From contig NZ_AAWL01000002.1 in NCBI RefSeq assembly GCF_000169155.1, positions 1 to 64,000 on the forward strand: a DNA stretch of 64,000 nt, written 5' to 3'. Positions 25,887-45,261 of this stretch are shown here, piece after piece. Both the position numbers and the translations under genes were made by a program. The notes below the pieces were generated by a model. That model was given only the letters and a program-made list of their open reading frames with translations, was not told the DNA's origin and searched no databases. Source of the DNA: Thermosinus carboxydivorans Nor1. Its GTDB lineage: Bacteria > Bacillota > Negativicutes > Sporomusales > Thermosinaceae. The stretch's first letter is position 1. Every line of letters begins with the position of its first letter.

Positions 25887-26978
25887 ATGCCGCGAATACT
25901 GCATTTCGCCGACCTGCACCTGGGCGCGCCCTTTCGCCAGTTCGGGCCGCGCGGCAAGCTGCTGCGCGAAGGACTGAAAAAAACACTCGAAAACATTATC
26001 GCCGCCGCGCAAAAAGAGCGGGCCGACTTGGTGCTGTGTGCCGGCGATTTAGTAGACGCTAACCAGGTGTCGCCGGCGACGGTAGACTTTATCGCCGCCC
26101 ACGTTTGGCAAATTGGACGTACCGGTCGTTATTCAACCAGGCACCCATGACTGTTATGACCGCCAGGCCGTCTATAACGCCAGGTCTTTGCCCGGCTTCC
26201 AAACGTGCAAATCGCCACGGCCGAAGAAGGCCAAACCTTTGAATTTCCAAGCCTCTCGCTGGCTGTACATATCAAGGCCAATACCGCTAACCGCAGCCCG
26301 GTCAGCCCGCTGGCCGGCCTTACCCCTCACGCCGATTTTCGCTGGAATGTGGCCGTCGCCCATGGCTCACTGCAAATTCCCGGTAAAGCGGCTGCCGACG
26401 ATTACCCTATTACGTTCGACCAGCTAGCCGCCTCCGGCATGGACTATGTGGCCCTCGGCCACTGGCATAACTTTTACGAAGTAACCAGCACCTCCCCCCT
26501 GGCCTGCTATGCCGGCGCTGCCGGTACCCTGAGCTGGACGGAAGCGGACAGCGGCACGGTCTGCCTGGTGGATTTGGACGACAGTGGCGTGCGTGTTACC
26601 CGCCTGTCGGTGGCTTATCACCGCTGGCACGATGCGGAGTGCGCCTTTGACGAAGTCGAAGCCCGCCTGACCGAACTAAAGGGCGATACCAGCCTGCTGC
26701 GGCTTACGGTGCGGGGCGACCTGCCGGAAGGCGGTGCGGCCAAACTGGCCGAACTGACCAAGCGCTGGCAAAACGCCTTTTTCTACCTTGAAATTAGGAG
26801 CCCGGCCAGCCCGTCCGTCGCGGTAAACCTTGATCAAGTAAACGAAAACACTTTTGCCGGCCAGTTCCTGCTGCTGGCGAAAGAGCGGCTGGCCCAGGCC
26901 GCGCCGGAAGACAAGAACCTCTTGGCCAAGGTGCTGGCGCGCGGCTGCCAAATCCTGACGGCCGGGGAGGTGGACTAA
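25887..26978 (+). CDS. SbcD/Mre11-like DNA exonuclease subunit, with two frameshifts
   Basis: This metallophosphoesterase forms a complex with the ATPase encoded next to it to process DNA ends. The N-terminus holds HFADLHLGAPF (metal ligands D and H) and LCAGDLVD. At 26110 the frame shifts: one extra A in CAAATTGG changes LDVPVVIQPGTHD into a frame that stops at 26150. About 80 bases later, near 26190, a second indel restores the original frame (VQIATAEEG), and the rest, with ALGHWHNF, runs to 26978. The two shifts compensate. They look like sequence errors, but if real they would kill the nuclease. Start ATG 25887 follows GAGGTGATC; the stop is one base before the next gene. Confidence 0.8.
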
Positions 26979-26979
26979 G

Positions 26980-29439
26980 ATGCTGATCGAACAGATCGCT
27001 GTCAAAAACTTCCGCAATTTAGCCGACGTAAACCTCACCTTACAGCCTGGCATCACCCTCATCAAAGCCAAAAATGAGGGTGGCAAAACGTCGCTACGCA
27101 AGGCCGTGGAAATAGCCCTGTTCGGCGACCCCCGTTCGGCCGCCGCCAAAGTCTATCAACACCAGACCTGGGGCCAGAATAGCCTGTACGAAATCCGCCT
27201 GGACTTTTCCGCCGACGGGAAGCGCTACCGCCTGGTGCGCGATTTTGAAGCCCGCACGTCAGTGCTGGAAAACTTAGCTGACGGCAAAAAACTGACCGAT
27301 AAGAAACGGATTGAAGAAAAACTGGCCGAAATTCTCGGCCTGCCGACCGCCACACTGTTTTTGAATACCGTTTATTTCTCGGCGGAAGAAATGATCCAGC
27401 TCAAGAATGCCGAAGAGCTGCGCAAACGGCTGGAAGAAAAACTGAGCGGTCTAGATGGCGTCGTGGTGTCCAAGTTGCTCAAAGACATTGACGACCACCT
27501 GAGCGAACTCACCAAAGGCCTAAAAGGCACAGCCAAAAATCCCGGCCCCATCCGGCGGCTCACCGACAAACTAGATGCGCTACAGGCCGAACTGCGAGAA
27601 ATGGAAGAAACCGTCCGCCAGGCCGCCGCCAAATACGCCGAGTATTACGAAACGTCGCAGGCAATCGCCACCCTGAAAGAACAACTGGCGATCAAAGAAA
27701 CGGAAAACGAAAAATACGTCCAGTATAAAAAAGCCAAAGAAATGTGGGATAATGCCACCGCCCGCTTAAACACGCTCACCGACCAGCTGGCGCAACGCGC
27801 CAACTACGAAACGGTGGCAAAACAGCTCGCCGACGAGTTAACGCAAATCGAAACCCAAGGCCAGCAAATCGCGGCCGTCGTTGCCGCCATTGACCAGGCG
27901 CTGCAGACCGCCGCCGAGCTGGCGCGCTCCCGCACCGACGCCCAAATCCTGGCGACCGTACTGGCCAAAATCGCGGCGGCCCAGGCCGACCTCGAGGCGG
28001 CGCAAACGGTTTTGGCCGGCTGTGTGGCGGTAAAACCGGCTGATGTAAAAACCGCCCAGAAACTAGCCAGCGAAATTCACGGCCTGGCCCAAGCCGGGAA
28101 AAACGAGGGGTTTGTCGTCGACATCACGCCGCTGACCGCTGCACTGCCAACCGTCATTGTCGACGGCGAACCACTGACCAATCCGGCCCAAACGGTCGAG
28201 GCCCGCGCCAGCGTGGAAATTGAGCTGCCCGGCGTTGCCCGCATCCGCATTGGCAATAAAAATGCCGACGCCGCCAAGCGCCTGGCGGCCGAACGCCAGG
28301 CTCGCGCCAACCTGGCTGCCCTCCTAGCTGGCTATGGCGCGAGCGACCCCGATGAACTGGCCCGGCTGAAAGAGGCCTATGACCAGGCCAGCGCCCAGGT
28401 GCAGGCCAAGCAGGCAGCATTAACCGCCCTGCTGGGCGGCCACCCGCTCGAACATTACCACCAGCAACAAGCCGCCTGGGCCCGCACGATCGAAGGCCAA
28501 GAACAGGCACTCCAGACGCAGATACAAGCAGCGCTGGCAGCCGCAAGTTCAACTGGCACCACCGCTCCGGCGGCAAGCGACCTGCCGGCCGCCCTTGCCT
28601 GGCTGCAAACGCTTCACGCCGCCCTCACCGATCAGCGTGATAAATTGCGCATCCAGTGGCGCGACAAAAATAACGAGCTGCAGCAAGTACAGGGCAGACT
28701 CAAACAGCTTCCCCCAGCAGACAAGTTAGAAGCAGACCAAAAAGCGGCTGCCCGCGATGTATTTGTCGCCAAAGTCGCCTTTGACGACTTAAATCTCCCC
28801 GCCATCAGCCCCGAGCAGCTCATCCGACTGGAGAAAGAAGTTGCCGACCTAAAGCACGAACTGCGGGACAAAGAAATCGCCCAGGCCAAGCTAGAAGCCT
28901 ACCTGGCCACCGTGCGCTATGGCATCGAAGATATTGAAACGAAACGCGAGGAAATCGAAACCTGCCAGGAGCAGCTACGCGCCCTGCAGGAAGAAGTGCA
29001 AGTGCTCTCCATTCTCAAAGAGTGGTTTAGCGAAGCCCGCAATAACACGGTGGCGAAAATCACCAGCGACATCGGCGACGCTTTGCTGCGTTACTTTAAT
29101 ACCCTGACCGAGGGCCGCTACAACCAGGTCGGCCTCAGTCCCGACCTCAGCCCGATGGTGTTTTCGGCAGACAAAGGCGACCATGTGGATATTGGCAGTG
29201 AACTGTCCACCGGTACCCGCGACCAGCTCTACTTCGCCACCCGCTTGGCCCTCATCCCGGCAATCAGCCAGGGGAAAAAGCCGCCGCTACTGCTCGACGA
29301 CCCCTTTGTCCACTTTGATCCCGACCGGCGGGCCAAAGCCTTTGCCCTTCTCAAGGAACTGGCGAAAGACCACCAAATTTTGTTGTTTACCTGCGGCGAC
29401 GGCTGCGACGCCTATGCCGATACCGTCATAAATCTGTAA
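26980..29439 (+). CDS. SbcC/Rad50-like SMC ATPase (YhaN type)
   Basis: This coiled-coil ATPase is the partner of the SbcD-like nuclease in DNA end processing. The 819-residue protein has Walker A KNEGGKTS (residues 31-38), a DxxF-type start (MLIEQIAVKNFRNL), long Ala/Gln/Glu-rich coiled coils from about 170 to 690, and a C-terminal signature LSTGTRDQLYFATRLA with Walker B LLLDDPFVHFD. It lacks a clear zinc-hook CxxC at the coil apex, which separates it from classical SbcC. One base separates it from the upstream gene, so the pair is coupled. A terminator follows. Confidence 0.88.
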   Translation: MLIEQIAVKNFRNLADVNLTLQPGITLIKAKNEGGKTSLRKAVEIALFGDPRSAAAKVYQHQTWGQNSLYEIRLDFSADGKRYRLVRDFEARTSVLENLADGKKLTDKKRIEEKLAEILGLPTATLFLNTVYFSAEEMIQLKNAEELRKRLEEKLSGLDGVVVSKLLKDIDDHLSELTKGLKGTAKNPGPIRRLTDKLDALQAELREMEETVRQAAAKYAEYYETSQAIATLKEQLAIKETENEKYVQYKKAKEMWDNATARLNTLTDQLAQRANYETVAKQLADELTQIETQGQQIAAVVAAIDQALQTAAELARSRTDAQILATVLAKIAAAQADLEAAQTVLAGCVAVKPADVKTAQKLASEIHGLAQAGKNEGFVVDITPLTAALPTVIVDGEPLTNPAQTVEARASVEIELPGVARIRIGNKNADAAKRLAAERQARANLAALLAGYGASDPDELARLKEAYDQASAQVQAKQAALTALLGGHPLEHYHQQQAAWARTIEGQEQALQTQIQAALAAASSTGTTAPAASDLPAALAWLQTLHAALTDQRDKLRIQWRDKNNELQQVQGRLKQLPPADKLEADQKAAARDVFVAKVAFDDLNLPAISPEQLIRLEKEVADLKHELRDKEIAQAKLEAYLATVRYGIEDIETKREEIETCQEQLRALQEEVQVLSILKEWFSEARNNTVAKITSDIGDALLRYFNTLTEGRYNQVGLSPDLSPMVFSADKGDHVDIGSELSTGTRDQLYFATRLALIPAISQGKKPPLLLDDPFVHFDPDRRAKAFALLKELAKDHQILLFTCGDGCDAYADTVINL

Positions 29440-31493: not shown

Positions 31494-34400
31494 CTACTCC
31501 TCAAACTCATGGTGCTTAAACCGTAACGTCCGGCAGTTCTCGGTAACGGTGCGCACCACATTATCAGGCACGCCTTCGGAAAAGTCGGCCTGAATATCCA
31601 GGCTGACCCTGACCCGGGCCCCGTTTAATAGCGCCAGGTGCTGAATAACTTCTTCGGCAATCTTGCCGGCGTCCCGGCCGATGCGCGCCGTATCTAAATC
31701 CACGGTGGCGAAGAACCGGCGCACTTTTTTCGCTGGCGACGGCGGCGGGGTAACGGGCGGCACGTCGCGGCCATCGCGCACGCCCGCCGTCCCGGCTGCC
31801 CCGTCTTGCTGCGGCGGATAATCAACAGGCGGCGCCATGCGGCTGGCTTCTGCTTCATCCTGGGCAAATTGCCGCTTGGCTGCCGCCGGTTTGACCAAAA
31901 AGCCGCTTATCTCAGGGAAACCGGCGCTGCCCTGTGGACCTAAAGACAGCCCGAGAAACCGGCCGGCCTCCGTAACCGCCGCGGCATAGCCAAAGTATTC
32001 GTCCGACCGCAGGCCTTCCGCGATCGCGTGGATGAGTACATTCACGTCCTTTAGCCGGGGCAAATAGCAGTAGCTGGCCAAATACTCCCATACTTTCTTG
32101 ATCTGAATATACTCCTGGTCCCGCCAGAGCCAGCGCTCCAGCTCCATAAACAGAAGGGCCGGCGACCAGCGGGTAATGAGATATTCGCTTGTCCGCATCT
32201 GCTGCGATGCTTTCACTACTGGGCTGTCGGCGCTGCCGCCGATGCGCACCGTTTCCCACATAACCGGCCCGGCGCCTTCCTGATACGGCGTGAGCAGCCA
32301 CGAGTACGCCTCTTTCAGCCTGATGTCGACCGTTTCGTCGGCCCGCTTTTTGCTTTCCGCCGCTTCCCGCCGCTGGTGGGCGTCCAGATTTAATGCTTCC
32401 GCTTCGTCCAGCACCGATTGCCAGGCCAGGTACCGCCTCACTTCCATGTCAAGACTGGCAATAAGCTCCCGGTCAGGCGCGACAAAGGCCAGCATGTTGC
32501 GGTATAGTCGCGGGCCAGCGCCGCGGCTGGCCAGGATATCGCCCGCCGCCGCCAGCGCCGGGCTGTCCGCGCTCCCCAGGCGGTGATGCTGCTGGGGGGA
32601 TAGCACCACCAGCCGCACGGCCTGCTCGTCCGGCACATCGGCGGAAGAGGCAGGGCAGACATGGACGCCGGCAAACTCGCCGCGGTCGCGCATTGCTTTC
32701 AGGCGCTTTTCCAGCTCGAGCTCCACATCGTCGCTTTTATATTGCTGGGCCCGGTCTTCGACGGTGCGCCGAAGGTTCGGGGGCAGGTCGTACCAAAAGC
32801 GCTGACCACTGACATAGAGGTGGGTCGAGCGACTCAGCAGGTGACCGGCCGCGTCATTAAACACCGCCACCGCTTCCCCGGGCTGGACCACCCCTAAGCG
32901 CACGCGCACGTCTTCAATGCCCCGGTTGCGCTGCTCCCGCACCGACGGGGCGCTACCCAGGAAAATGGACCGGGCTACGCGCCGCGCCGCCATGCACTGG
33001 CCGAAGCGGGGGTTTTCTTTTTCCAACTTTTGCGGCAGTGACCGCGGACCGTCCACATCGGTCTCCACCACATTGTTCCAGCCGTTATCCAGGTAGCGGG
33101 TCAGTTCTTCCCGGACAATGGCGCTATTTAGCGGGATCGACCCGGGCATAATCATTAGACCGGCATCCTGGTTGAGCCACAGTTCATGAATGACCGCCGC
33201 CATCAGCCTGAGCACGCCCCGGGTGCGCTGAAACCGGTCGAGCGCCGCCCAGTCATTGTACAGCCGGTCAAAAACTTCGGGGTGAATGGGATAGCACGCC
33301 TTTAAGCGGGCCAAATAGGCCAGCTCCTTCGTCTCCAGCGGAAAGTCGCGGCCGCCGCCTGAGTACATTTCGCTAAAAGCGCGGCAGACCTCGTCCCGGG
33401 CCACCTCGTCTTCCACGTCCAGGAACAGGCGGCGGCGGACAATTTCAAACCCCTCGTCCGCGCCGACCGGCTTCCAGATATATTCCATCCGGCCAAAGGT
33501 ATGCTCGATTTGCTCCTGGGTTATCTTCCCTGCTTCCCCACCGATTTCGATCTCCGATTCGGGAATAGAGGCTACGACGAGGCTGTTTTGGCTGGCCCGG
33601 GCCGCTTCGGTCAGTTCCTGGACAAAGGTCAGGACGGCTTCAAAACTGCCGGCCGGCAGGCCGTCGACCTTGTAAATTTTCCGGGCATAGGCCACTAATT
33701 CGTCAATCAGGATCAGGCAGGGGCCGCAGGTGTCGAGGAGCTCGACCAGCGCCGCCGACCCGGGCGGCACCGCTTTTTTATCGGCGTCGCGGACAATGTC
33801 GTAAATCTTATTGGCGGTGGCAGCATCGCCCTCGGCCACCTGCTCGGCCAGCTGGGCCGCCATTTCCCCCCACAGGGTATTAATGGTAATACCCGGTAAA
33901 TTGGCCGGGCGCCGCGCTTTGGACGGATTGAGGGCCGTGCCGACCAGCACGGCGATGCGCGCCCGCGGCACTTCCGCCGCGCCGGCCGCTGCCAGCACCG
34001 GCTGAAGATTAGGCAGCCGCGCCACGGTCGTCGCCGAGCGCAGCAGATGATACAAGGCCAGCATACTGTGGGTCTTGCCGCCGCCAAAGGCCGTCTTAAG
34101 CTGGATGACCGGCTCGCCACCGGCGCCGCCGGTGCGGCGGATGGCCTGCACCAAGAGGTCCTTCATCCCTTCAGTGATATAGGTGCGGGCGAAAAATTCC
34201 ACCGGGTCCTGGTACTCGATTTGCGCCGTCCCCCGCACAACCTGGGAAAGGTCGGCAGCAAACTCCGCCTGCCGGTACCGCCCTTCGGCCACATCGGGGT
34301 GGGGCCGGATGACGTTACGCCAGGGCTTTAGTCCGCCGCGGGGCACTGTCCGCAGCACTTCAAGGCTATGACGGGACGCTGCCGGTGGAGACGCCAGCCC

Positions 34401-34874
34401 GGCAGCCGCTGTCGACGCGCCCGTCGTCCCGTACCGCACCTGGCGCACCAGGGCCCGCAGCGCTTCCGTCGTCTCGGCATCCAGCTGTTCGGTGAGGCGG
34501 GCCATGGTGTCCAGCGCCCGCCAGGCATCGTCGGCGGAAAAATCGCCGCTCCCCTTGTGCGCCCATTTATTGCGGGTGGTAATAAGCTCTTTCACCCAGT
34601 GGCGGTGTTCCTTGCTGAGTTTTAGTTTGAATATCTGGTTCCAGTGGATATCGATGAGAACAAGACATCGGGCGGCATCGAGCGAATCGACCAGCATGCC
34701 CCAGTCGCCATCATCGGGCAGGTCGCGTTTTTGCTCATCGTAGAGCACGGCAAGCACCCCGTCCTGCCACCAATTATTGCCGAAAAAGGCCCGCAGCTGC
34801 TGGGCCACATACGGCGCCAGGATTTCGGTAAGCAGGTGAAACCCTTTGGTGATTAACGTATAATTATCGGCCAT
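31494..34874 (-). CDS. DUF499 AAA+ ATPase with N-terminal HEPN-like (Swt1-type) domain
   Basis: This large protein (1126 residues) is the ATPase of a defence-type cassette. Residues 1-130 resemble the Swt1-type HEPN fold and carry RNKWAH (101-106), the Rx4H pattern of HEPN RNases. The DUF499 AAA+ core follows, with FGGGKTHS (Walker A, 263-270) and CLILIDELVAYAR (Walker B, 386-398). The last 100 residues contain a Pro-rich linker, then a VSLDIQADF domain. It follows the methyltransferase stop by 15 bases behind GGAGGGAAGG, so the pair is one operon. ATPases of this family occur with DUF1156 methylases (COG1743/COG1483 pairs) in defence islands; the mechanism is not settled. Confidence 0.85.
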   Translation of the reverse strand: MADNYTLITKGFHLLTEILAPYVAQQLRAFFGNNWWQDGVLAVLYDEQKRDLPDDGDWGMLVDSLDAARCLVLIDIHWNQIFKLKLSKEHRHWVKELITTRNKWAHKGSGDFSADDAWRALDTMARLTEQLDAETTEALRALVRQVRYGTTGASTAAAGLASPPAASRHSLEVLRTVPRGGLKPWRNVIRPHPDVAEGRYRQAEFAADLSQVVRGTAQIEYQDPVEFFARTYITEGMKDLLVQAIRRTGGAGGEPVIQLKTAFGGGKTHSMLALYHLLRSATTVARLPNLQPVLAAAGAAEVPRARIAVLVGTALNPSKARRPANLPGITINTLWGEMAAQLAEQVAEGDAATANKIYDIVRDADKKAVPPGSAALVELLDTCGPCLILIDELVAYARKIYKVDGLPAGSFEAVLTFVQELTEAARASQNSLVVASIPESEIEIGGEAGKITQEQIEHTFGRMEYIWKPVGADEGFEIVRRRLFLDVEDEVARDEVCRAFSEMYSGGGRDFPLETKELAYLARLKACYPIHPEVFDRLYNDWAALDRFQRTRGVLRLMAAVIHELWLNQDAGLMIMPGSIPLNSAIVREELTRYLDNGWNNVVETDVDGPRSLPQKLEKENPRFGQCMAARRVARSIFLGSAPSVREQRNRGIEDVRVRLGVVQPGEAVAVFNDAAGHLLSRSTHLYVSGQRFWYDLPPNLRRTVEDRAQQYKSDDVELELEKRLKAMRDRGEFAGVHVCPASSADVPDEQAVRLVVLSPQQHHRLGSADSPALAAAGDILASRGAGPRLYRNMLAFVAPDRELIASLDMEVRRYLAWQSVLDEAEALNLDAHQRREAAESKKRADETVDIRLKEAYSWLLTPYQEGAGPVMWETVRIGGSADSPVVKASQQMRTSEYLITRWSPALLFMELERWLWRDQEYIQIKKVWEYLASYCYLPRLKDVNVLIHAIAEGLRSDEYFGYAAAVTEAGRFLGLSLGPQGSAGFPEISGFLVKPAAAKRQFAQDEAEASRMAPPVDYPPQQDGAAGTAGVRDGRDVPPVTPPPSPAKKVRRFFATVDLDTARIGRDAGKIAEEVIQHLALLNGARVRVSLDIQADFSEGVPDNVVRTVTENCRTLRFKHHEFEE

Positions 34875-34889: not shown

Positions 34890-37688
34890 CTATAAAGACA
34901 GTTCAACCTGAACGGCCGGCCGGGCGGCAAATTCCACCATCTTCTGCTGGATAGCCGGCCAGGAAACGACCAGCGTGTTGTAGGCCAAAGCCTCATCGGT
35001 CCAGCCTCGCCGCTCGCAAATGGTATACAGGCGGTAGGCCAAGGCTTTCGCCTGTTCGGCCCGTTCGCCGCCCAGGCGCAAAGCGAGCCGGGCGGCGGCG
35101 TCTTCACCGCCTTCTAGCAGCGCCTTGACCAGCTGCTGGGCAGAGCGCCAGACCGTTAGGCGGCTGTCGTGTTCGGGGCTAAAGTCAGCGAGCTCGTCCC
35201 GCTTGATCAGGCGCACCTTGCCCTTGGCCGCCGCCAAGATACCGTCACTCACCAACCTGTCCACCGCCGTGTTCTTGGCCCGGGCCAAAACGTCGGCCTC
35301 ACCAAACGGCGCCTCGCCCAGGCCGAACTGTTCAAACCAGGCGGCGCAGAACCGGGTGTCTTCGTCCATGGCTCCTTCCTGGGCAGCAAGATAAGCGTCC
35401 AGCTCCTGGTTTATCAATGCTAGCGCCGTCCGTACCGGCATGGGCTGGCCGTCCGCCTCCAGTACTCGCTTGTAGCGGGAGAAAATGGCCATGCCGGGGC
35501 CGATCGCGCACTGGGCCATGTCGACTGGAGCAATGCTCCCTTGCTGCAGTTCGTGGAGCGCCTGGGGCAGTTCCCGCCGCAGGGCGCTCAAAAACTCCCG
35601 CCGGGTGGCCAGCGGCGCATCATTCGGCCGCGGGCGGCAGACCAGAACGATGGACGAAGCGAGGGCGTTGGTGCCGTTCGCAACTGGCCGGTTTGATAAT
35701 TCGCTCCGCATCGGCCAGGTACCGGTAATGACAAACCCGGCCTTTAGCAATCCCTCCAGCATTGTCTCCCAGCCCGTCGACGCCGTGCTGCCGTGGGTTT
35801 CGGCGCCTTCATCGCCAGCTTCGGTATCAGCCTGCTTAAAGGCATAATAGACCGTCAGCGGGTAGTCCGGGTGGGCCATTTGCCGCATCGTGGCAAAGGC
35901 CGCACCTAGCCCATGCTCAAAAAACGCCTTGGCCTTGTCCTTATCGCCGCCAAACCGGTAAGGAGTAGCCACCAGTTCCGGCGCTTTGGGAACCAGCACG
36001 GTGCTGAAAATATCAGGATATATGCCGTGCAGCGCCCGCCGCAGCCAAACATAGAAAAAATCGGACAAATCGGCATAACCGATATTGTCGTAGTAGGGCG
36101 GGTCGGTGGAAATGATGGCCGAAAAACCAAAATTAGGTTCCGTTGCGTCAAGTTGGTATACTTTTCCTAGAATTCTACTTCCTAATTGATGTATAACCTT
36201 CCATACCCAATCAACACAAGCAGTCCAATTGCCTGTTGAGGTACTAAATGGACAACATTCCGCGTAATCCCAAACCATTGGAATTGCCTGTCTACCAAAA
36301 GTATTCCTCATTTTTTCGCCGGAAGTATGCCAACTACACATGCTAGACCAGTAATCCGCTCCCTTATCCACCGCCAGCGCCAGATATGTCGCCACGGCGT
36401 CGGCATAAGCCGCCGCACCGGCGCCGCCGTCGTTAAGGCGTGTACCGTCATCAGCCATCCCTGCCGCTACCGCGTCCTGATAAACCTGCTCCCGTGCCGC
36501 CGCCACCAGGTCGCTGAAGGTGGTTAGCGCGACCAGCTGGCGGGGAGTGAAGAGGTCTTTATGTTTCGTCATTCCGTACTGCTGAACTCTAAAACCTAAT
36601 GCTTTTTCCGGCAAGTCAGTGTCAGGAACGTTTTGCGGCCGCGCCGCCAGGGCCGTCTGTACATGCTCCTCGTCCGGCCCGACATATACCCGCCCGTTAC
36701 GGCCTTCCGCCACGATCGCCATCAGGCGAACGCCCATCCGTCCGGCCTGGCCTTCGCCGCGGATATAGTCAAAGGCCACCGGCGTGCCGCAGCATATACA
36801 TTTAGCCCCGCGACGACTCACCGTCCCTTCCGGCGGCTTGCCTTTCCCCGTCTTTACGACAAACCGCACCTGTTTTACCGCGCCGTCCACCACCGGCTCG
36901 ACCCACGCCTCTTTGCCTTTTTTTGTTGATAACCAAAACTTGCTTGCCAGCGGCATTTCCCAGCCGCAGGCCGGGTTGGGGCACCGCACGGTGCGCGCCC
37001 ATAGCCAGGCGATGACGGTGGCCTCCCCGCCGCCATGCTCGGGCGGCAGTTTCACCTTGGGGTATAAATGGCCGATGCGCTTGGCGGCCTCACGGCGCAT
37101 CCATTCGCCATAGTAGCGCACGTCGGCGGCCAGACCGGCCGCCCCTTGCCACCCCTGGCCGGCGCCGATTTGCCGCCGCGCCTCGGGGTTGACGGGCGCT
37201 CGCCCCGCGAACCGGGGCGGGATTTCAATAAGCGCTTTGGTGATCAGCACCGCCACCGGATTTAAGTCGCTGGCGTACGCCGCCAGGCCCAACCGCTGGG
37301 CCTCGAGGGGGATGGAACCGCCGCCGCAGAAGGGGTCGTACACCGGCGGCGGATTGTTGTTGGTAGCCTTCATGATCTCTTTACGGGCTTTCGCCAGCAC
37401 TTCTTCGTTATTCGTGTTCTCCCACTTGACCAGTTCTTCGATTATGCCAAATAACCGTTTCCGCTCCTTTTCCTGGTCGGCTTCGGTGGGGAACCTGTCC
37501 GGATGGCTGGACGGGTCGTCCACTAGCGTGGCAAACAGCACTGCCCGGCAGGTTGCCAAGGGCTTGCGTGACCACCACAGGTGCAGGGTGGATGGGTGGC
37601 CGTGGCGGATAGACTTTTCCCGGGCCGACGCCTGGTTAATAGCATCCAGCGGCAGGGCCACTTCGATGAGCTTCTTTTTGTAGGACAT
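34890..37688 (-). CDS. DUF1156 adenine-type DNA methyltransferase with zinc ribbon
   Basis: A 932-residue DNA methyltransferase, probably N6-adenine. The DUF1156 N-terminus is evident (REKSIRHGHPSTLHLWWSRKP, residues 23-43). SAM-binding motif I is VYDPFCGGGS (116-125), followed by ASDLNPVAV. A zinc ribbon is formed by CPNPAC and CICC (about 240-290). The catalytic motif is STDPPYYDNIGY (about 526). It precedes the DUF499 gene and should mark self DNA in the defence cassette. Oddly, about 36120-36350 of the coding DNA is clearly AT-rich compared with both sides, suggesting an internal recombined block. Start ATG at 37688; an ISLre2 element is 24 bases upstream and separates it from the rest of the cassette. 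Confidence 0.88.
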   Translation of the reverse strand: MSYKKKLIEVALPLDAINQASAREKSIRHGHPSTLHLWWSRKPLATCRAVLFATLVDDPSSHPDRFPTEADQEKERKRLFGIIEELVKWENTNNEEVLAKARKEIMKATNNNPPPVYDPFCGGGSIPLEAQRLGLAAYASDLNPVAVLITKALIEIPPRFAGRAPVNPEARRQIGAGQGWQGAAGLAADVRYYGEWMRREAAKRIGHLYPKVKLPPEHGGGEATVIAWLWARTVRCPNPACGWEMPLASKFWLSTKKGKEAWVEPVVDGAVKQVRFVVKTGKGKPPEGTVSRRGAKCICCGTPVAFDYIRGEGQAGRMGVRLMAIVAEGRNGRVYVGPDEEHVQTALAARPQNVPDTDLPEKALGFRVQQYGMTKHKDLFTPRQLVALTTFSDLVAAAREQVYQDAVAAGMADDGTRLNDGGAGAAAYADAVATYLALAVDKGADYWSSMCSWHTSGEKMRNTFGRQAIPMVWDYAECCPFSTSTGNWTACVDWVWKVIHQLGSRILGKVYQLDATEPNFGFSAIISTDPPYYDNIGYADLSDFFYVWLRRALHGIYPDIFSTVLVPKAPELVATPYRFGGDKDKAKAFFEHGLGAAFATMRQMAHPDYPLTVYYAFKQADTEAGDEGAETHGSTASTGWETMLEGLLKAGFVITGTWPMRSELSNRPVANGTNALASSIVLVCRPRPNDAPLATRREFLSALRRELPQALHELQQGSIAPVDMAQCAIGPGMAIFSRYKRVLEADGQPMPVRTALALINQELDAYLAAQEGAMDEDTRFCAAWFEQFGLGEAPFGEADVLARAKNTAVDRLVSDGILAAAKGKVRLIKRDELADFSPEHDSRLTVWRSAQQLVKALLEGGEDAAARLALRLGGERAEQAKALAYRLYTICERRGWTDEALAYNTLVVSWPAIQQKMVEFAARPAVQVELSL

Positions 37689-37754
37689 ATGATACGCTCC
37701 TGTTTTTAAGTGTTAGTGTAAAATTACTGTAGGATTTTTGAGGAAGAAAAAAGA

Positions 37755-37819
37755 AGAAGACATCACCATCCTTCGACGGGATGAGTAATCCAAAAAGATT
37801 ACCCAGGGGTGATGTCTTC
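37755..37819 (+). promoter_or_regulatory. Fold-back hairpin that masks the transposase ribosome site
   Basis: Arms GAAGACATCACC (37755 onward) and GGTGATGTCTTC (to 37819) pair, as do inner GATGAGTAATC-like and GATTACCC segments. The right arm includes AGGGGTG, the ribosome site for the ATG at 37820. Transcripts entering from outside would fold and stay untranslated, the same idea as in IS10. A near-copy without a transposase lies at 50.1 kb. Confidence 0.65.
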
Positions 37820-39220
37820 ATGTCAGTAATTATTCGATATATCAAAGAAATTATCCTTTCGAAGTTGGAAGAAGACGAGAAAGAATTTGAGCGTTTATTG
37901 TATGAGATGGATTTTCAGAATTTTGAGCGGCTGTTACAAAATAAACTACATGACGTAGGGCGCACAATCATCAAGGCGGTTTTAGAAAAAATGGACCAAC
38001 TGATCAAACAAGATAAGACGCTTCGTCCTGGCTGGGTAGTTTGCCGAAAAGATGACGTTAAAGAAGTAGTAACCTGTTTTGGGACTGTAAGCTATGCCAG
38101 AACCTACTACCGACATAAGGAAACAGGGCAATACGCATATTTAGTTGATGAACAAGCAGGTTACGCGCCGCATATGCGATTAGACCCAACGGTCAAGGCA
38201 AAACTGATCGAGCATGCAGCCGAAATGTCTTACCGCAAAAGCGCCGAAAAAGTAGGAGCGGCATGTGGCGGGGTAGCATTAAGCGGGCAGACAGTCTTGC
38301 GGGCAGTTCGCGAATTCAAAGAGCCCGAGATGCCGGTACAAGAGCGTAAAGCAGTGCCAAGACTCTACATAGAAGCAGATGAAGACCATGTAGCCTGCCA
38401 GCATGGGCGGGCGTTGGAATCCCGGCTGGTTTATATACATGAGGGCTGGGAAGAAAAAGACGGAAGACGGTCACTAAAAAATCCGGTATATCTAAGCGGT
38501 ATGGATAAAGAAGCAGATGAATTTTGGGAAAAAGTATGGGACGAAGTAAACAAGCGCTATGACCTTGATCGTATCGAAAAGATCTATGTAATAGGTGATG
38601 GTGCAGCATGGATTAAGTGTGCTCAGCTTGTTTTTCCGAAGGCAGAATTTATTTCAGATAAGTTCCACTTAATGAAGTACATTCGGCGAGCGTTAGGCGG
38701 TAACAAAGAACTCAACAAGACACTAATGGGAGCATTGCGGTTTGGCAACTTTGAAAAAGCACAAGAAGTCATTGAAAAGCTACTAAAAAGGGCGCCAACG
38801 GCAAGTCGGAAACAGGCAATTATACAATCCTGGAGCTACATTCGAAGCAACTGGGAAGGGATAACCAGAACATATAGTCACAAAGAGATAAAATGCAGTG
38901 CAGAAGGGCATATCAGTCATGTATTATCGGCGCGCATGAGCAGCCGGCCGATGGGGTGGAGCCGAGAAGGCGCCAAGCATATGGCATACATACGCGTATG
39001 TCAGGCAAATGGTCAGTCAGTAGCCGAGGAATATCTAAGACAACAACAAGTAAATTACAAAATTGAGATAATGACAACAAGCCCGGCAGAAACTGTAGAA
39101 GTTGAACGGCAAAAGAAAACAAAAGCAACCTGTGAAACACATGACAATATTCCTGTATTAAAGGGGCCGAAAAACTTCTTATATAAGGCCTTGCGGGAGC
39201 TTTCGCTTGCCTATGCTTAA
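37820..39220 (+). CDS. ISLre2-family transposase (UPF0236)
   Basis: The 466-residue transposase matches the ISLre2 pattern. An N-terminal helical part leads to a CFGTVSYARTYYRHK beta-motif (about 85) and to the RNase-H-like core. The first acidic residue is in LYIEADEDHVACQ (about 185), and the second in YVIGDGAAWIKCA (about 255). SDKFHLMKYIRRAL follows as expected. The C-terminus has SARMSSRPMGWSREGAKHM. The frame opens at 37781 inside the hairpin; the ATG at 37820 behind AGGGGTG is the better start. It looks intact and is on the opposite strand to the defence genes. Confidence 0.9.
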   Translation: MSVIIRYIKEIILSKLEEDEKEFERLLYEMDFQNFERLLQNKLHDVGRTIIKAVLEKMDQLIKQDKTLRPGWVVCRKDDVKEVVTCFGTVSYARTYYRHKETGQYAYLVDEQAGYAPHMRLDPTVKAKLIEHAAEMSYRKSAEKVGAACGGVALSGQTVLRAVREFKEPEMPVQERKAVPRLYIEADEDHVACQHGRALESRLVYIHEGWEEKDGRRSLKNPVYLSGMDKEADEFWEKVWDEVNKRYDLDRIEKIYVIGDGAAWIKCAQLVFPKAEFISDKFHLMKYIRRALGGNKELNKTLMGALRFGNFEKAQEVIEKLLKRAPTASRKQAIIQSWSYIRSNWEGITRTYSHKEIKCSAEGHISHVLSARMSSRPMGWSREGAKHMAYIRVCQANGQSVAEEYLRQQQVNYKIEIMTTSPAETVEVERQKKTKATCETHDNIPVLKGPKNFLYKALRELSLAYA

Positions 39221-39300
39221 TATTATGTTAACTCATCCGCGATGGTATGTCTTCTAAAAAATCCTACAATGTCTTGACACTATCTTTTAAGTTATTTCTT

Positions 39301-39330
39301 TTGACAAATTGCCGAAAAATATTTTATAAT
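39301..39330 (+). promoter_or_regulatory. Strong sigma-A promoter of a small RNA gene
   Basis: A perfect -35 TTGACA (39301-39306) and a perfect -10 TATAAT (39325-39330) are 18 bases apart. Nothing downstream on this strand is coding; a structured stretch of about 70 bases and a terminator follow. Confidence 0.85.
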
Positions 39331-39334
39331 AGAA

Positions 39335-39408
39335 GTGCGGAGCTGAACCGCCGCACTGGCGGTGTAGGTTCTGCCAAACGCCCGCTCGTAGCGGGTTTTA
39401 TTTTTTTA
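39335..39408 (+). ncRNA. Small structured RNA with pseudoknot next to DUF3800
   Basis: Transcription from the promoter above would make an RNA of about 75 bases. Hairpin 1 pairs GTGCGG (39335-39340) with CCGCAC (39351-39356). Its loop contains GAACC (39345-39349), which is the exact complement of GGTTC (39367-39371) inside the next hairpin, whose stem is GGC (39358-39360)/GCC (39373-39375). This gives a pseudoknot. CCCGCT/AGCGGG with a T-run (39381-39408) ends it. It faces the 3' end of the DUF3800 gene, 4 bases from it. Structured RNAs linked to DUF3800 genes have been reported as DUF3800 RNA motifs; whether this belongs to one needs a covariance search. Function is unknown. Confidence 0.75.
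39381..39408 (+). terminator. Terminator of the small RNA
   Basis: The 6-bp stem CCCGCT/AGCGGG with a short loop is followed by TTTTATTTTTTT. It ends the promoter-RNA unit just before the convergent DUF3800 stop. Confidence 0.85.
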
Positions 39409-40049
39409 TACTCATATTCGTTTTATGCCCATCTGCAGCGGATCGTCAGCCGCTGCTTCTTTTATGGTCATAGGCTTAATATGAAGGAATAATCTATCAG
39501 CATTAAACTTTTTATAAGACCCTTTCGGGTTCTCCTGCCGATAAAGAGCATGAACAATCATATCCGCAGCCTGGATAAGAAAACTGTGATGCGACTGCCG
39601 TTCAAAGGGGTCTTCAATTATCCGGTCTAACCGGTTATTGTACCATTCGCCAAATTTGCTGCTAGTAGGATTATATTGCCGTAACCGTCTTTGAATTTTT
39701 CGCAAGTGAATTTCGTTACCCTCATCAGTAATTACCATGCCGTAAGCATTGGCATCTTGCTTTAGCATATACGTCTGAAATCTTTCCAGTAAACAGCGCC
39801 ACGCTGTATCATACCACTTTTCCTGTTTCAGAGTTGTATTGACTTTGTCTAAGAATACCGGATTAACCCCTTAATTTTGGAGTCCTGTCTTAAAATGCTC
39901 ATAAAATCACAGGATTGCTTTTTCTTACGCTTTCGCATATGCGAGTGTAGCCCATGCTTGTCATATGTCAAGGCACGCTTCGCTCTGCTAATGGCAGGCC
40001 TTGACATTATGACTGCGCACATGCTTTTACGGTCATCAGCGAAAGCTTA

Positions 40050-41003
40050 TTAGACCTTAACTGTAAACAGGCTTTCTCCAGTTGCTGCAACCAAGCCGTT
40101 AAACCTAGCTGGTGACATATATCGCAAACTGCTATGGAGACGCCGATTGGTGTAAAAGTCAATGTATTCTGCTACTACTTTAACAGCTTCCTGATAGCTT
40201 TCAAACTCATGCCGCGACAGGCATTCATCTTCAAGTAAACGGTGGAAAGCCTCAATATGGGCATTCATATTGGGTGTCTTGGGTGGTATGCGCTCATGTT
40301 CGATACTTAGAGCGGCACACGCTTCTTCAAATGCGTGGCACGTAAATTGCGGTCCATTATCAGTCCGAACAACTGGACGCACATCCGTTTGCAGCAATTT
40401 GCGCCTGAATAGTGCTCGTTTGAGCAAGCTTGCAGCGTGTACACCTTCACATGTCAGACCAATATAGTAGTCTATGATCATTCGATCATAGATGTCGATT
40501 ACGCACATTACGAAGAAAAAGCGGTCTTCGCCAGCAATATAGCCATATTTTATATCAATTTCCCATAGTTCGTTGATTTTGCTAACTGTCCGGTTACGAG
40601 CCAGACGGCGGATATGACGAATATGTCTATTACGCTGTGGTCTTAAAATATCAAGTTCTTTACAGAGCCGGTATACCTTTTTCTTGTTGATGATTAACTT
40701 GTATTCTTGCGTCAGGCACTTGGCAAGTTTACGATAACCATAAACACTTTCTTCGCCCGAGATTAGTTCGAGCAGCCACTCCTTAATTTGTTCATCGCAT
40801 ATCCGTTCTCCCAATTCATTATACGAATAACCAGGGACTGGCCGGCCGCCGCGTGTTACTTTTGGTGCCGTTTGTGTTTTTGTTTCTGTATGTTCTAATG
40901 ATTGCTGATGTTTTCGCCGCTCGTAATAAGTTGATGCGTTAATGCCGATAATGCGCAGCACTTGGGCCACAGGATATCCCCGGCTTATCCACTTATCGGC
41001 CAC
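40050..41003 (-). CDS. IS3-family transposase OrfB (DDE integrase domain)
   Basis: The 317-residue reading frame carries an HTH_21-like N-terminal segment (NELGERICDEQIKEWLLEL) and the rve integrase core. The DDE triad is visible: D in LWEIDIKYGY, D in RTDNGPQF, and E in NAHIEAFHRLLEDE. It lies in the -1 frame relative to OrfA. By itself it could start at the GTG at 41003, but the likely product is an OrfAB fusion made by ribosomal slippage at A AAA AAG. No stop disrupts it, so it appears functional. Confidence 0.93.
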   Translation of the reverse strand: MADKWISRGYPVAQVLRIIGINASTYYERRKHQQSLEHTETKTQTAPKVTRGGRPVPGYSYNELGERICDEQIKEWLLELISGEESVYGYRKLAKCLTQEYKLIINKKKVYRLCKELDILRPQRNRHIRHIRRLARNRTVSKINELWEIDIKYGYIAGEDRFFFVMCVIDIYDRMIIDYYIGLTCEGVHAASLLKRALFRRKLLQTDVRPVVRTDNGPQFTCHAFEEACAALSIEHERIPPKTPNMNAHIEAFHRLLEDECLSRHEFESYQEAVKVVAEYIDFYTNRRLHSSLRYMSPARFNGLVAATGESLFTVKV

Positions 41004-41005
41004 GG

Positions 41006-41332
41006 CTATTTTGTCCGATAGCCGGGGTTGGTCTTTTTTAAAAGATCACGTAATATTGCAATTTCGAGATCTTTATCGCCCAAAATGCGTTTAAGCCGTT
41101 CGTTTTCAGTCTCAAGTTGCCTAAATTCTTGAGGAGTCGGAACATACGAGCTGGTTTTCTTGGCGCTAGGATCCGTGTTTTCCCAGTCTTTGTGTTTGGC
41201 CCGATTTAACCAGTTATAAACAGTTTTAGGGCTAATTTCATGTTTTCTGGCAACTTGGGCTACATCAGCACCTTGTTTGATTTCTTCAATTACCATTTCT
41301 TTGAATTCTTTAGTATACCGAGTCGATCTCAT
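41006..41332 (-). CDS. IS3-family transposase OrfA (HTH domain)
   Basis: The 108-residue product has an N-terminal helix-turn-helix (KEFKEMVIEEI.. DVAQVARKHEISPKTVYNWL, residues 8-42) that binds the IS ends, and a leucine-zipper-like coiled coil (LETENERLKRILGDKDLEIAILRDLLK) near the end. Near its end is the slippery heptamer A AAA AAG, followed by a stem GGCTAT/ATAGCC that contains the OrfA stop, a standard -1 frameshift signal. Shifted reading continues LKKDQPRLSDKIAV into OrfB. Confidence 0.92.
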   Translation of the reverse strand: MRSTRYTKEFKEMVIEEIKQGADVAQVARKHEISPKTVYNWLNRAKHKDWENTDPSAKKTSSYVPTPQEFRQLETENERLKRILGDKDLEIAILRDLLKKTNPGYRTK

Positions 41333-41769
41333 GTCTCGTCTCTCCCCTCATGTTTTCATTTTATCCTATTTTGAGACGAGACTCCAATTGGATTAGGGGG
41401 CTAAATAGATACCGTCAATACTTTGGCATCAGGCAAAGCAGCAGACAGACGTTCAAGAAAGTAGTGATAAATTTTCATTCTTTCCGACCTATGTTGCAGT
41501 TTAGGATTGGGATAATTACGCTTTCCCCGCGGATTAAATAGTTCTGCACCATGCAACTCTTCGGATTGGGGGAAGCCAAAAATCTGTTTTAATTCTCGGC
41601 GAAGTTTTACCATACCAATCAAGTTTTCCTGCCATTTATCCATAGGCAAAATTATGCCTGCTAAGGCATAATAACTACAGCCGGTCTGGCCAGCAGCCTT
41701 ATTATACGCACCTATATCCCCAGACTCATCGACATACAAAAGATAATACCTCATGATACCACTGCCTTT

Positions 41770-44700
41770 CTATGAAGATTGGCCCTTAAATAAATCCGCA
41801 ATACTATAATTCACGCTGGTTGCGGCAAAGTCTGGCTCACTCCGGAACGGGCACTTGATATACTGCGGCTGGCCGACGCTTTCCCCTACTTCGACAATAG
41901 CCAGAAAATAATCGTCCGGCTTATTGAGCGCCGTGAGGATCTCGTTTTTGGTCACGGTCACCGTCGTTGCCCCCGGTGCCCGCCCTTTGACCTCGATAAA
42001 CCGCAGTTTCCCCGTGCCGGGAATGCGGGACTCGATATCATAGCCGCACCGCTCACTGCTCACGTCCCGCGGCTCGTAGCCGAGGCTGCGTTCATAGGCC
42101 ATCACGGCGTCCATCGCCTTGCGCTCGCTGCCCTGAGTATCATGAGCAAACAGCGGCGGCCTGCTGCCTGTCAACCGGTCGATTAGACCTTGCGGCACGA
42201 CCAGCGCGCCGCCGATGACCATCGGCGGCAGCGGCGAAAGGTTGCGCTCCTCATTCAGCTCGTCCAGCCGCCGCTTTAAGCGGGCCTCCAATTCGTCGGC
42301 CCGCTGGCGCGCCTTGGCCGAGTTGATTTTAGCGTTGACTTTGCCCGCCTGCTCGGCCAGCTTGAGTTCTTCCGCCCGCAGGTCCCAGTAGTTAATTTCC
42401 TTGGTTAGGCGGTCCTTGACCGCCGCCATGGTCTTGGCAATCAGTTCTTCCTTGCGGCGCTTCACGGCAGCAAAGTGCCCCGGCACCATGGTGGTAATCG
42501 CGTAAGTCATGGCCTGCGCTTCCAAATCGGCCTGCAGCCAGTTTTTGTTAATATATTGAAGGATTAGTTCTTTCTCGCTACCTTCTGCCGGGCGGTAGTC
42601 AAGGTACGGAGCGTACCCGGCCGCGCGGGCGCTGCCGTCGACGCTTATTTCTACAAATTGGACCTGGCGGGAAACAATCCGGCGGCTGCCGTCTTTGGTC
42701 GTCCGCCCGTCCTGGACGGCGTGCTCGAGGTAGACCAGGGCCCGCACCGTGTCACTGCCATCGTTCGGGTCGATTAAAATGGCGCCACGCTTTAATAAAT
42801 CCCGGTTGCGCTCAAGGATCAGGTCGATCGTGGCATCAAGCAAAGGGTGCCCAGGGCAGATAAAAGCAGCCTGTGGTTTACCCTGGACATAGATAAGGTC
42901 TTTTTCAAAACATACCCGTTCATAGCGGGTCATTACCGGCTCTCTTGTCCCGATCTGCCGGTCGCGGGCGCGAATGACGGCCGGGACATGGGTGATTTCA
43001 TACCGGCCCGGTTCGCGTTCGCGCAAAACGCCGCCAAACAGTTTAAAGGCTTCCTTGAAAAACGCGGCAATAAAATGGGGCTGGAGGCGGCGAGCTTCGA
43101 GCCGCTCCATTTCTTCGCGGATCTTCATGACTTTGTGGACGTCCATCACGTCGTGCGACAAGGCCCGCTCTTCCAGCAGATTGACCAACGCGTCCCTGTC
43201 CAGCGCCTGATCGACGGCCTGATAAAGTCTCATCTTTACTTCCGGCCGGTCGCCGTAGCGAATGGCCTCGATCAACAGATCGCGCAGCGGCCGGTTGTCA
43301 AAAGTGATTTTCCCCAGCACGTCAAAGACCTTGCCGCCGAGGGCCTCCCGCTCCTCTTCCAGCTTTTTGAGCAAGCGAAAATAAACTTCCCCCTCGCGGG
43401 TGTCGACGGCTACCATATTCCACAGGTGGCAGACCTCGGTCTGGCCGATACGGTGAATGCGGCCAAACCGCTGTTCCAGCCGGTTGGGGTTCCACGGCAA
43501 ATCATAGTTGATCATAAGGTTGGCGCGCTGCAGGTTGATGCCCTCACCGGCGGCATCGGTGGCGATCAGGATATGGACGTGTTTATCATGGGTAAATAGT
43601 TCCTGCACTCTTTTCCGTTCTTCCCGTCCCATGCCGCCCTGGATGGTTGCTACGGCATCGTCACGGCCAAGGAGCGACCGGATTTTTTCAGCCAAGTAAT
43701 TAAGTGTATCGCGGTGTTCGGTGAATATTACCAACTTACGGCGCATGCCGCCGGCGTCAAACATGGCGGTCTCATTCTGGAGCAGTTTGGATAGCTCATC
43801 CCATTTGCGGTCGGCGCCGCTGGCTCTGAGTTCTTTGGCCCGCTTCTCCAGGTAGCGGAGCTTGTCTATTTCGGCTTCCAGCTCGGCGATGGTCTGCGCG
43901 GCCGTAGCCTGGTCGACCACCATTTCTTCAATTTCTTCCACTTCGGCGCCCGGCGCGTCTTCCAAATCCGCCAGATCTTCCGCCGATAGGCTAATTAGCC
44001 GCTCTCGCTCCTGGCGCAGCTGGTGGCCACGCCTCAGAATTTTTTCTTCCCGCAGCCGCTTTTCCAGGCGTTCGCGTCGCCGACGCAGCGATTGGTAAAT
44101 GGCTTCCGGCGACGAGGCCAACCGTCGTTGGAGGATGGTCAGGGCAAAGCCCACGGTCCCCTTACGGCTGTCGCTTGCCAGCGCTTCCGCCCGGTTGAAC
44201 TCGTCCCGGACATAGCCGGTAACTTCGCTATACAGGTCGGCTTCGGCATCAGATAAGGTGTAATTGACGGTGTAGGCCATCCGTTCGGGAAATAGCGGCG
44301 TACCGTCGAATTTTAACAGCTCTTCTTTGACCATGCGGCGCATGAGGTCGGATACATCCACCGTATGTACGCCGTCCCGGAACCGGCCTTCAAACCGGTC
44401 GGCGTCTAACAGGGCCATAAATAGCTGAAAATCTTCTTCTTTGCCATTGTGGGGCGTCGCCGTCAAGAGCAGAAAATGTCGCGCTATCCGGCCGAGCAAT
44501 TGCCCAAGACGGTATCGTTTGGTAAACTTCACTTCGCCGCCAAAGAAGCTGGCCGACATTTTGTGCGCTTCGTCCACCACAATGAGATCCCATTCAGTCT
44601 CGCCCAGCTTGACCTGTAAATTTTCATCGCGCGCCAGCTTGTCAAGCCTGGCGATGCACATCGGTATTTCGTTAAAAATGTTGCCTGTCCGCGACGCCTC

Positions 44701-45261
44701 AATCCGGTCGTTGGTGAGAATCTCGAACGGGAGTTGAAACCGGGAATACATTTCATCCTGCCACTGGTCGGCGAGATTGCCCGGCGACACAATCAGGCAG
44801 CGGGACAAATCGCCTCGGACCATCAGTTCCTTGATAAATAAGCCGGTCATGATGGTTTTGCCGGCGCCCGGGTCGTCAGCAAGGAGAAAACGGAGCGGCT
44901 GCCGCGTCAATAGTTCACCGTACACGGCCGTGATTTGGTGAGGCAACGGCTCAACAAGCGACGTATGTACCGCCATCTGCGGGTCAAAAAGATAGGCCAG
45001 CCGAATGCGGTACGCCTCGGAAACAAGCTTGAGCAGACCGCCGTCGCCGTCGAAACTCCAGGGCAGGCCGTTTTCGGCGATTTCCAGGCTGCTTTCCCGG
45101 TCGCGGTAAATAAGTTCACTGTGCGGTCGGCCCGCCGGGTCTTTATAAGTCAGTTCCACCACGGCCGTACCATACCATTTTACATCCACCACCGTGGCTA
45201 AGCCGTCAGGCAAAAGGCCTTTCACCTTCGCCCCGCGCGTCAGTTCCTCCAGACGTGCCAA
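41770..45261 (-). CDS. SNF2-type helicase with C-terminal DUF3883 domain
   Basis: This 1163-residue superfamily 2 helicase heads the defence-type cassette. Motifs in order: HQITAV (Q-like), DDPGAGKTIM (Walker A, about 127), VVDEAH (DEAH box, about 227), LLLTATPHNG (about 268), then DAAGEGINLQ (motif V), and QRFGRIHRIGQ (motif VI). A charged coiled insert sits between the lobes. The C-terminus has YDIESRIPGTGKLRFIEVKGR (DUF3883), a PD-(D/E)XK-like patch that may bind or cut nucleic acid. Helicases of this type occur as DrmD in DISARM, but DrmA/B/C are absent here. The start is TTG at 45261 behind GGAGG. DUF3800 follows by 15 bases. Confidence 0.88.
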   Translation of the reverse strand: MARLEELTRGAKVKGLLPDGLATVVDVKWYGTAVVELTYKDPAGRPHSELIYRDRESSLEIAENGLPWSFDGDGGLLKLVSEAYRIRLAYLFDPQMAVHTSLVEPLPHQITAVYGELLTRQPLRFLLADDPGAGKTIMTGLFIKELMVRGDLSRCLIVSPGNLADQWQDEMYSRFQLPFEILTNDRIEASRTGNIFNEIPMCIARLDKLARDENLQVKLGETEWDLIVVDEAHKMSASFFGGEVKFTKRYRLGQLLGRIARHFLLLTATPHNGKEEDFQLFMALLDADRFEGRFRDGVHTVDVSDLMRRMVKEELLKFDGTPLFPERMAYTVNYTLSDAEADLYSEVTGYVRDEFNRAEALASDSRKGTVGFALTILQRRLASSPEAIYQSLRRRRERLEKRLREEKILRRGHQLRQERERLISLSAEDLADLEDAPGAEVEEIEEMVVDQATAAQTIAELEAEIDKLRYLEKRAKELRASGADRKWDELSKLLQNETAMFDAGGMRRKLVIFTEHRDTLNYLAEKIRSLLGRDDAVATIQGGMGREERKRVQELFTHDKHVHILIATDAAGEGINLQRANLMINYDLPWNPNRLEQRFGRIHRIGQTEVCHLWNMVAVDTREGEVYFRLLKKLEEEREALGGKVFDVLGKITFDNRPLRDLLIEAIRYGDRPEVKMRLYQAVDQALDRDALVNLLEERALSHDVMDVHKVMKIREEMERLEARRLQPHFIAAFFKEAFKLFGGVLREREPGRYEITHVPAVIRARDRQIGTREPVMTRYERVCFEKDLIYVQGKPQAAFICPGHPLLDATIDLILERNRDLLKRGAILIDPNDGSDTVRALVYLEHAVQDGRTTKDGSRRIVSRQVQFVEISVDGSARAAGYAPYLDYRPAEGSEKELILQYINKNWLQADLEAQAMTYAITTMVPGHFAAVKRRKEELIAKTMAAVKDRLTKEINYWDLRAEELKLAEQAGKVNAKINSAKARQRADELEARLKRRLDELNEERNLSPLPPMVIGGALVVPQGLIDRLTGSRPPLFAHDTQGSERKAMDAVMAYERSLGYEPRDVSSERCGYDIESRIPGTGKLRFIEVKGRAPGATTVTVTKNEILTALNKPDDYFLAIVEVGESVGQPQYIKCPFRSEPDFAATSVNYSIADLFKGQSS

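Follow-up and report, generated by a model that had tools for sequence, protein, structure and literature searches.

The DUF3800 proteins form a widespread, uncharacterised family, and what the RNAs adjoining their genes do is at issue. These proteins have been linked earlier with putative ncRNAs and with an RNase H fold (PMC10910872; also PMC12669027). Three Rfam families, DUF3800-VII (RF02967), DUF3800-I (RF02969) and DUF3800-IX (RF02968), are small structured RNAs located beside DUF3800 genes, as is the RNA described here. Type III toxin-antitoxin systems (e.g. ToxIN) also combine a small structured RNA with a nuclease gene, and they occur on mobile elements and in phages.

Within the window, by which we mean the whole 64-kb stretch of DNA that was analysed, we recovered a small-RNA gene that we consider, judging from its sequence, to be real; it is about 70 bases long and has a promoter, a structured RNA and a terminator. 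The putative sigma-70 promoter on the forward strand (TTGACA-N18-TATAAT, 39301-39330) has perfect -35 and -10 boxes, as stated in the first-pass annotation, and is the sole perfect site of this kind in the 64 kb, 0.01 being expected by chance. The transcript, of about 70 nt, would extend over 39335-39408 (forward strand), with its start (about 39335-39338) placed from the promoter and its end from the terminator; the homologue in L143 lies at 1417-1496. About 45 strongly folding bases separate promoter and terminator, and the RNA fold of the window is far more stable than that of shuffled sequences (z -4.1). The terminator claimed at first reading was located on the same strand at 39380-39408, where GCCCGCT-CGT-AGCGGGT is followed by a T tract. 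Equivalent terminators are found in the homologues, most of which also have promoter-like boxes upstream, the match being weak in L145, L161, L164 and L170. The last base of the U tract is 39408, and a DUF3800 gene on the opposite strand has its stop codon starting at 39412, so that the RNA indeed abuts this stop as had been noticed. A scan of the whole window against Rfam 15 gave no family for this RNA, and a local scan extended to E 10 returned poor chance matches only. The covariance models of the Rfam DUF3800 families, a comparison that had been proposed for this RNA, matched neither the window RNA, even at E 10, nor its homologues. Because the DUF3800-VII RNA in L121 sits convergent to a DUF3800 gene in the same way, the window RNA is of a known kind, the DUF3800-associated RNAs, and its family is unrecognised by Rfam 15. 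The DUF3800 motifs reportedly come from a structured-RNA discovery paper of 2017, and the window RNA may be equal to a motif published at that time and absent from Rfam.

The RNA is a single long hairpin (39337-39374, forward strand) followed by the terminator and made of an outer stem (GCGGAGCU/GGUUCUGC), a conserved CUGA/GUAGG internal loop and an inner stem. In the window, the internal loop is GA/GUA, the inner stem ACCGCC/GGCGGU and the variable apical loop GCACU, with a CM match of 40.3 bits to model R2. Among members the apical loop varies and the internal loop is fixed, with GA on the 5' side and GUA on the 3' side (often GAA/AGUA), an arrangement which we take to fit a bulged-G or sarcin-ricin-like module. 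Alignment rows were picked and trimmed on the CUGA/GUAGG core and not on pairing. With 20 sequences, the covariation of the outer stem was 0.662, against 0.218 +/- 0.040 for shuffled alignments (none of 500 shuffles reached the observed value), and it was 0.10-0.23 when the partners were slid; 85% of cells were paired, against 62% after shuffling, and six of the eight pairs exhibited double changes. Both stems could be followed together in the ten sequences with inner stems in register, from which the apical loops had been cut away, and we then obtained a covariation of 0.644 versus 0.212 and double changes in 11 of 14 pairs. The inner stem of L143, ACCAGC/GCUGGU, differs from that of the window by two compensated pairs. 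The hairpin apparently also serves as terminator in L146-L149, L166 and L179-L181, whereas the remaining members have a separate terminator after it.

We found 21 relatives of this RNA, in Bacillota genomes, on a Rhodococcus plasmid, in actinobacterial phages and in IMG/VR viral contigs; all 22 members, including that of the window, are convergent with DUF3800 and the end of their core lies 0-44 bases from the stop codon, a linkage that is partly by construction as most relatives were reached via DUF3800. In the genome G552, the C-terminal half of DUF3800 is 61% identical to that of the window, and a homologous RNA with the same fold is convergent at its stop (L143). The CUGA...GUAGG core was recovered at the same position in further members of the same phylum (L145-L149, L166), in the Rhodococcus plasmid and the Rhodococcus and Gordonia phages (L161, L163, L164), and in the IMG/VR viral contigs L169-L175, L177 and L179-L181. 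The DUF3800 relatives in viral contigs were retrieved with profile A4; single-protein scans of these contigs with P0001 and L149 gave no match, nor did an exact DNA pattern, and a plain DNA search with the RNA in 120 relatives produced short chance matches only. When 398 genomes were scanned with R2 in a protein-blind manner, three matches had E below 1e-6, all of them abutting DUF3800; they are also training sequences of the model and show the absence of strong matches elsewhere, and are not independent new members. The other 17 matches (E 1e-4 to 0.05) were without DUF3800, and their number is close to the chance expectation. Among matches to R1 or R2, we rejected L159 and L160, which lie inside coding sequence with no DUF3800 nearby, and L193-L209, also with no DUF3800 nearby, three of which are T-box leaders.

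One genome (G642) has two DUF3800 genes, each with its own distinct RNA (L145, L149). The distances between RNAs and those between proteins were correlated (Mantel r 0.83, 0/5000 permutations), showing that RNA and protein travel together; plain co-inheritance suffices to explain this co-divergence. The proposal of a small RNA dedicated to DUF3800 is thus borne out by the convergence at the stop in 22 of 22 members, by the covariation of both stems and by the correlated distances, and the first two of these, position beside DUF3800 and a covarying secondary structure, are what characterises DUF3800-associated RNAs. The pairing of RNA and DUF3800, as read from these genomes, is well supported, and suggests an RNA-protein partnership that travels with phages, on plasmids and in defence loci.

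Some of the neighbourhoods have features of their own. In the Gordonia phage WinkNick (L164, 857-3612), DUF3800 and its RNA adjoin the immunity repressor, near a tyrosine integrase, and such a site is typical for lysogen-expressed genes. In G552, smpB and the tmRNA gene precede the pair (L143/L150), which lies downstream of them by a few hundred bases; this region is a common integration site. Just 3' of a DUF3800 relative in L144 (1483-2205, reverse strand), there is a convergent RNA-like hairpin, GCAGGGTCGATCCGG...CCGGGAAATCGGTCTTGC, with a differing internal loop, which is maybe a divergent member. By eye, we also noticed a promoter-like site and hairpins facing the 3' end of DUF3800 in L109, L113, L116, L120, L124, L125, L130 and L133; these hairpins have other sequences and no Rfam match, and could be further RNA types.

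The DUF3800 gene of the window is split by an IS3-like element, a feature absent from the first-pass annotation. Its C-terminal part lies at 39412-39876 on the reverse strand (PF12686, 9.8e-11; 61% identical to the L143 DUF3800), and its N-terminal part, with the DESG motif, at 41401-41754 on the same strand (PF12686, 1.3e-4; 46% identical to the N-terminal half of L143). The IS3-family-like element between them (39877-41387, reverse strand; rve, HTH_21) encodes an rve transposase (40050-41003) and orfA (41006-41332), and has terminal inverted repeats at 39877-39896 and 41368-41387. Conservation in DUF3800 covers the acidic residues of the DESG motif and aspartates further on, and these are retained in both halves of the window gene. 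The window gene being split, a structure was predicted for the homologue L171 (pLDDT 87); the best match of the model was RNase HII (Foldseek probability 1.0; VIA-align Z 9.4, rmsd 3.1, 156 aligned), with Argonaute PIWI domains further down the list (Z around 6-7). The homologous DUF3800 protein is thus predicted to have an RNase HII-like fold, and the DE-S/A-G start motif of DUF3800 resembles the DEAG motif of RNase HII. Solved structures searched by sequence gave no convincing match for DUF3800. We found no second DUF3800 gene able to use the window RNA in the same genome, and G001, from the same genus, has a weak DUF3800 fragment only, without DNA similarity to the window locus. With its nuclease gene split by the insertion sequence, the RNA probably has no intact DUF3800 partner in this genome and is an orphan. 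That the nuclease gene was lost and the RNA was not is compatible with an inhibitor role, and equally with recent decay.

Taken together, the free-standing small-RNA gene and the convergent DUF3800 gene could form a mobile two-gene cassette in which the RNA binds the nuclease, perhaps as an antitoxin-like inhibitor; this is the reading we favour, and we give it about an even chance. The conserved internal loop would be the site where the DUF3800 nuclease binds its cognate RNA, as suggested by the fit of this loop to a GUA/GA bulged-G module. Less certainly, the RNA might keep the nuclease inactive as an RNA antitoxin does; we were led to this inhibitor role by the arrangement of the two genes, by their occurrence in phages and on a plasmid, and by the two distinct pairs of G642. 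The cassette might also, with similar reservation, be active in phage-phage or phage-host conflict. RNA and DUF3800 appear to be transcribed separately and towards each other, which sets them apart from the known RNA-antitoxin operons, and the sequence favours none of the three roles of inhibitor, activator or substrate.

The main rival to inhibition is an activating or targeting role, which we regard as possible and rather unlikely. The RNA would then be a cofactor, a scaffold or a guide aiming the RNase HII-like DUF3800 at a target, the apical loop being the possible recognition part. RNase H-like folds are used by RNA-guided enzymes, and it would agree with such a role that PIWI domains figure in the fold list and that a constant internal loop goes with a variable apical one. 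DUF3800 proteins are moreover accessory to some type V/VI CRISPR loci (PMC10910872, PMC12669027). However, at 4-10 nt the apical loops are short, and they are near-constant within each group (GAAT, CTAGA, GCAT), which is not guide-like.

We consider it improbable that the RNA is mainly a substrate of DUF3800 or a regulator of its expression, acting at the gene's 3' end either as an antisense or interfering transcript or as a terminator element. The RNA does converge on DUF3800, with a terminator that extends up to or into the 3' end of the gene, but a terminator has no need of a separate promoter, or of covarying stems around a conserved CUGA/GUAGG loop, and most of the transcripts are expected to end before the gene end or just within it.

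The surrounding methylase/ATPase/helicase locus is an Hma defence system, PADLOC having recovered together the helicase hmaA (41770-45261, reverse strand, 1727 bits), the adenine methylase hmaB (34890-37688, reverse strand, 1250 bits) and the ATPase hmaC (31494-34874, reverse strand, 1082 bits; N-terminal Swt1-like HEPN domain, PF18731). An ISLre2-like insertion sequence (37712-39284, forward strand; UPF0236 transposase, PF06782), likewise missing from the first-pass annotation, lies between hmaB and the RNA and ends 16 bp before the -35 box. It has inverted repeats, a target duplication TTTTAAGT at 37704-37711 and 39285-39292, and a second genomic copy that is 99% identical with the same end points. 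We rejected the RNA as a part of this element, which ends at 39284 where the other copy stops too. Were the ISLre2 copy removed, some 31 bp would separate the -35 box from the start codon of hmaB, so that the ancestral order was hmaA, DUF3800, RNA (on the opposite strand), hmaB, hmaC. This proximity and the position between hmaA and hmaB are what could be said for an RNA belonging to Hma defence and not to DUF3800, which we think very improbable: a profile search of 80 other Hma loci, retrieved through HmaA, found no DUF3800, hmaA and hmaB are only 20-50 bp apart in several close relatives, too tight for DUF3800 or the RNA, and homologues of the RNA are present where hma genes are not (L143/L150, phages, plasmid). 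On the 80 loci retrieved, we thus abandoned the notion that Hma loci in general carry DUF3800, or that DUF3800 and its RNA are a regular Hma component; the link between the cassette and the methylase/ATPase/helicase locus looks incidental from these gene orders.

The gap between hmaA and hmaB (37689-41769 in the window; L029-L108 elsewhere) exceeds 400 bp in 55 of the 68 loci measured, reaching 8 kb, and resembles an accessory slot; many Hma loci have other cargo there. The Swt1-like HEPN domain of HmaC is a possible RNase, the PADLOC HmaC match covering the protein from residue 182 onward only. A long SMC/RecN-like ATPase gene (26205-29439; PADLOC LmuB, 1.4e-22), with another gene just upstream, possibly corresponds to a defence or repair operon.

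The model of the first-pass annotation, two hairpins joined by a GAACC/GGTTC pseudoknot, retains hardly any credibility and is rejected as the fold of the RNA family: the complementary words are present in the window and in L143 (a 5-base loop complement is expected by chance in about 4% of cases), but their covariation is 0.027 without any double change, the pairing is broken in most other members and in L145, where GGTTC is GGATG, the first hairpin (GTGCGG/CCGCAC) is missing from L143, the closest homologue, and the two hairpins, at -13.3 kcal/mol plus about -4.7 for the loop-loop helix, are less stable than the nested fold at -24.1. Compensatory changes in relatives, which had been called for as a check, were present in the outer and inner stems and lacking for GAACC/GGTTC (0 double changes).

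Returning to the cassette with an RNA that binds its nuclease, one can ask how far it extends. DUF3800 could be a broad class of RNase HII-like nucleases, each controlled or aimed by its own convergent small RNA and making up with it a ribonucleoprotein module for defence or conflict, disseminated by phages and plasmids; we put this forward tentatively, as somewhat short of an even chance. The window RNA defines a non-Rfam family, and other DUF3800 genes may adjoin further unlisted RNA types. Our analysis provides a compact RNA family with covariation, a likely recognition element and a predicted nuclease fold. Binding, inhibition and specificity can be put to direct test with natural cognate pairs, among them the two of a single genome and several from cultured phages of Gordonia and Rhodococcus.

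Among known systems, the closest are the RNAs of the Rfam DUF3800 families, which differ from the window RNA in length and sequence. The DUF3800-VII RNA of L121 (2232-2322, reverse strand), from a genome that has an Hma locus, is like the window RNA convergent with DUF3800 and abuts its stop. T-box leaders, the main recognisable false positive of the RNA model (three genome-wide), have in their stem III the CUGAA/AGUAGG internal-loop sequence in common with our family; T-box leaders are long, belong to mRNAs and contain other domains, and nothing else in them resembles the window RNA. As in type III toxin-antitoxin systems, the partner of a small structured RNA is here a predicted nuclease gene, and the pair occurs in phages and on mobile elements. 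However, the type III RNA consists of tandem repeats upstream of the toxin in the same operon, whereas the window RNA is a single unit, without such repeats, located downstream and convergent under its own promoter, and the type III protein is ToxN-like whereas DUF3800 has a predicted RNase HII-like fold. Finally, RNase HII and RNase H2 have a fold similar to that of the modelled DUF3800 at about 10% identity, from which DUF3800 differs by the dedicated RNA gene alongside it.
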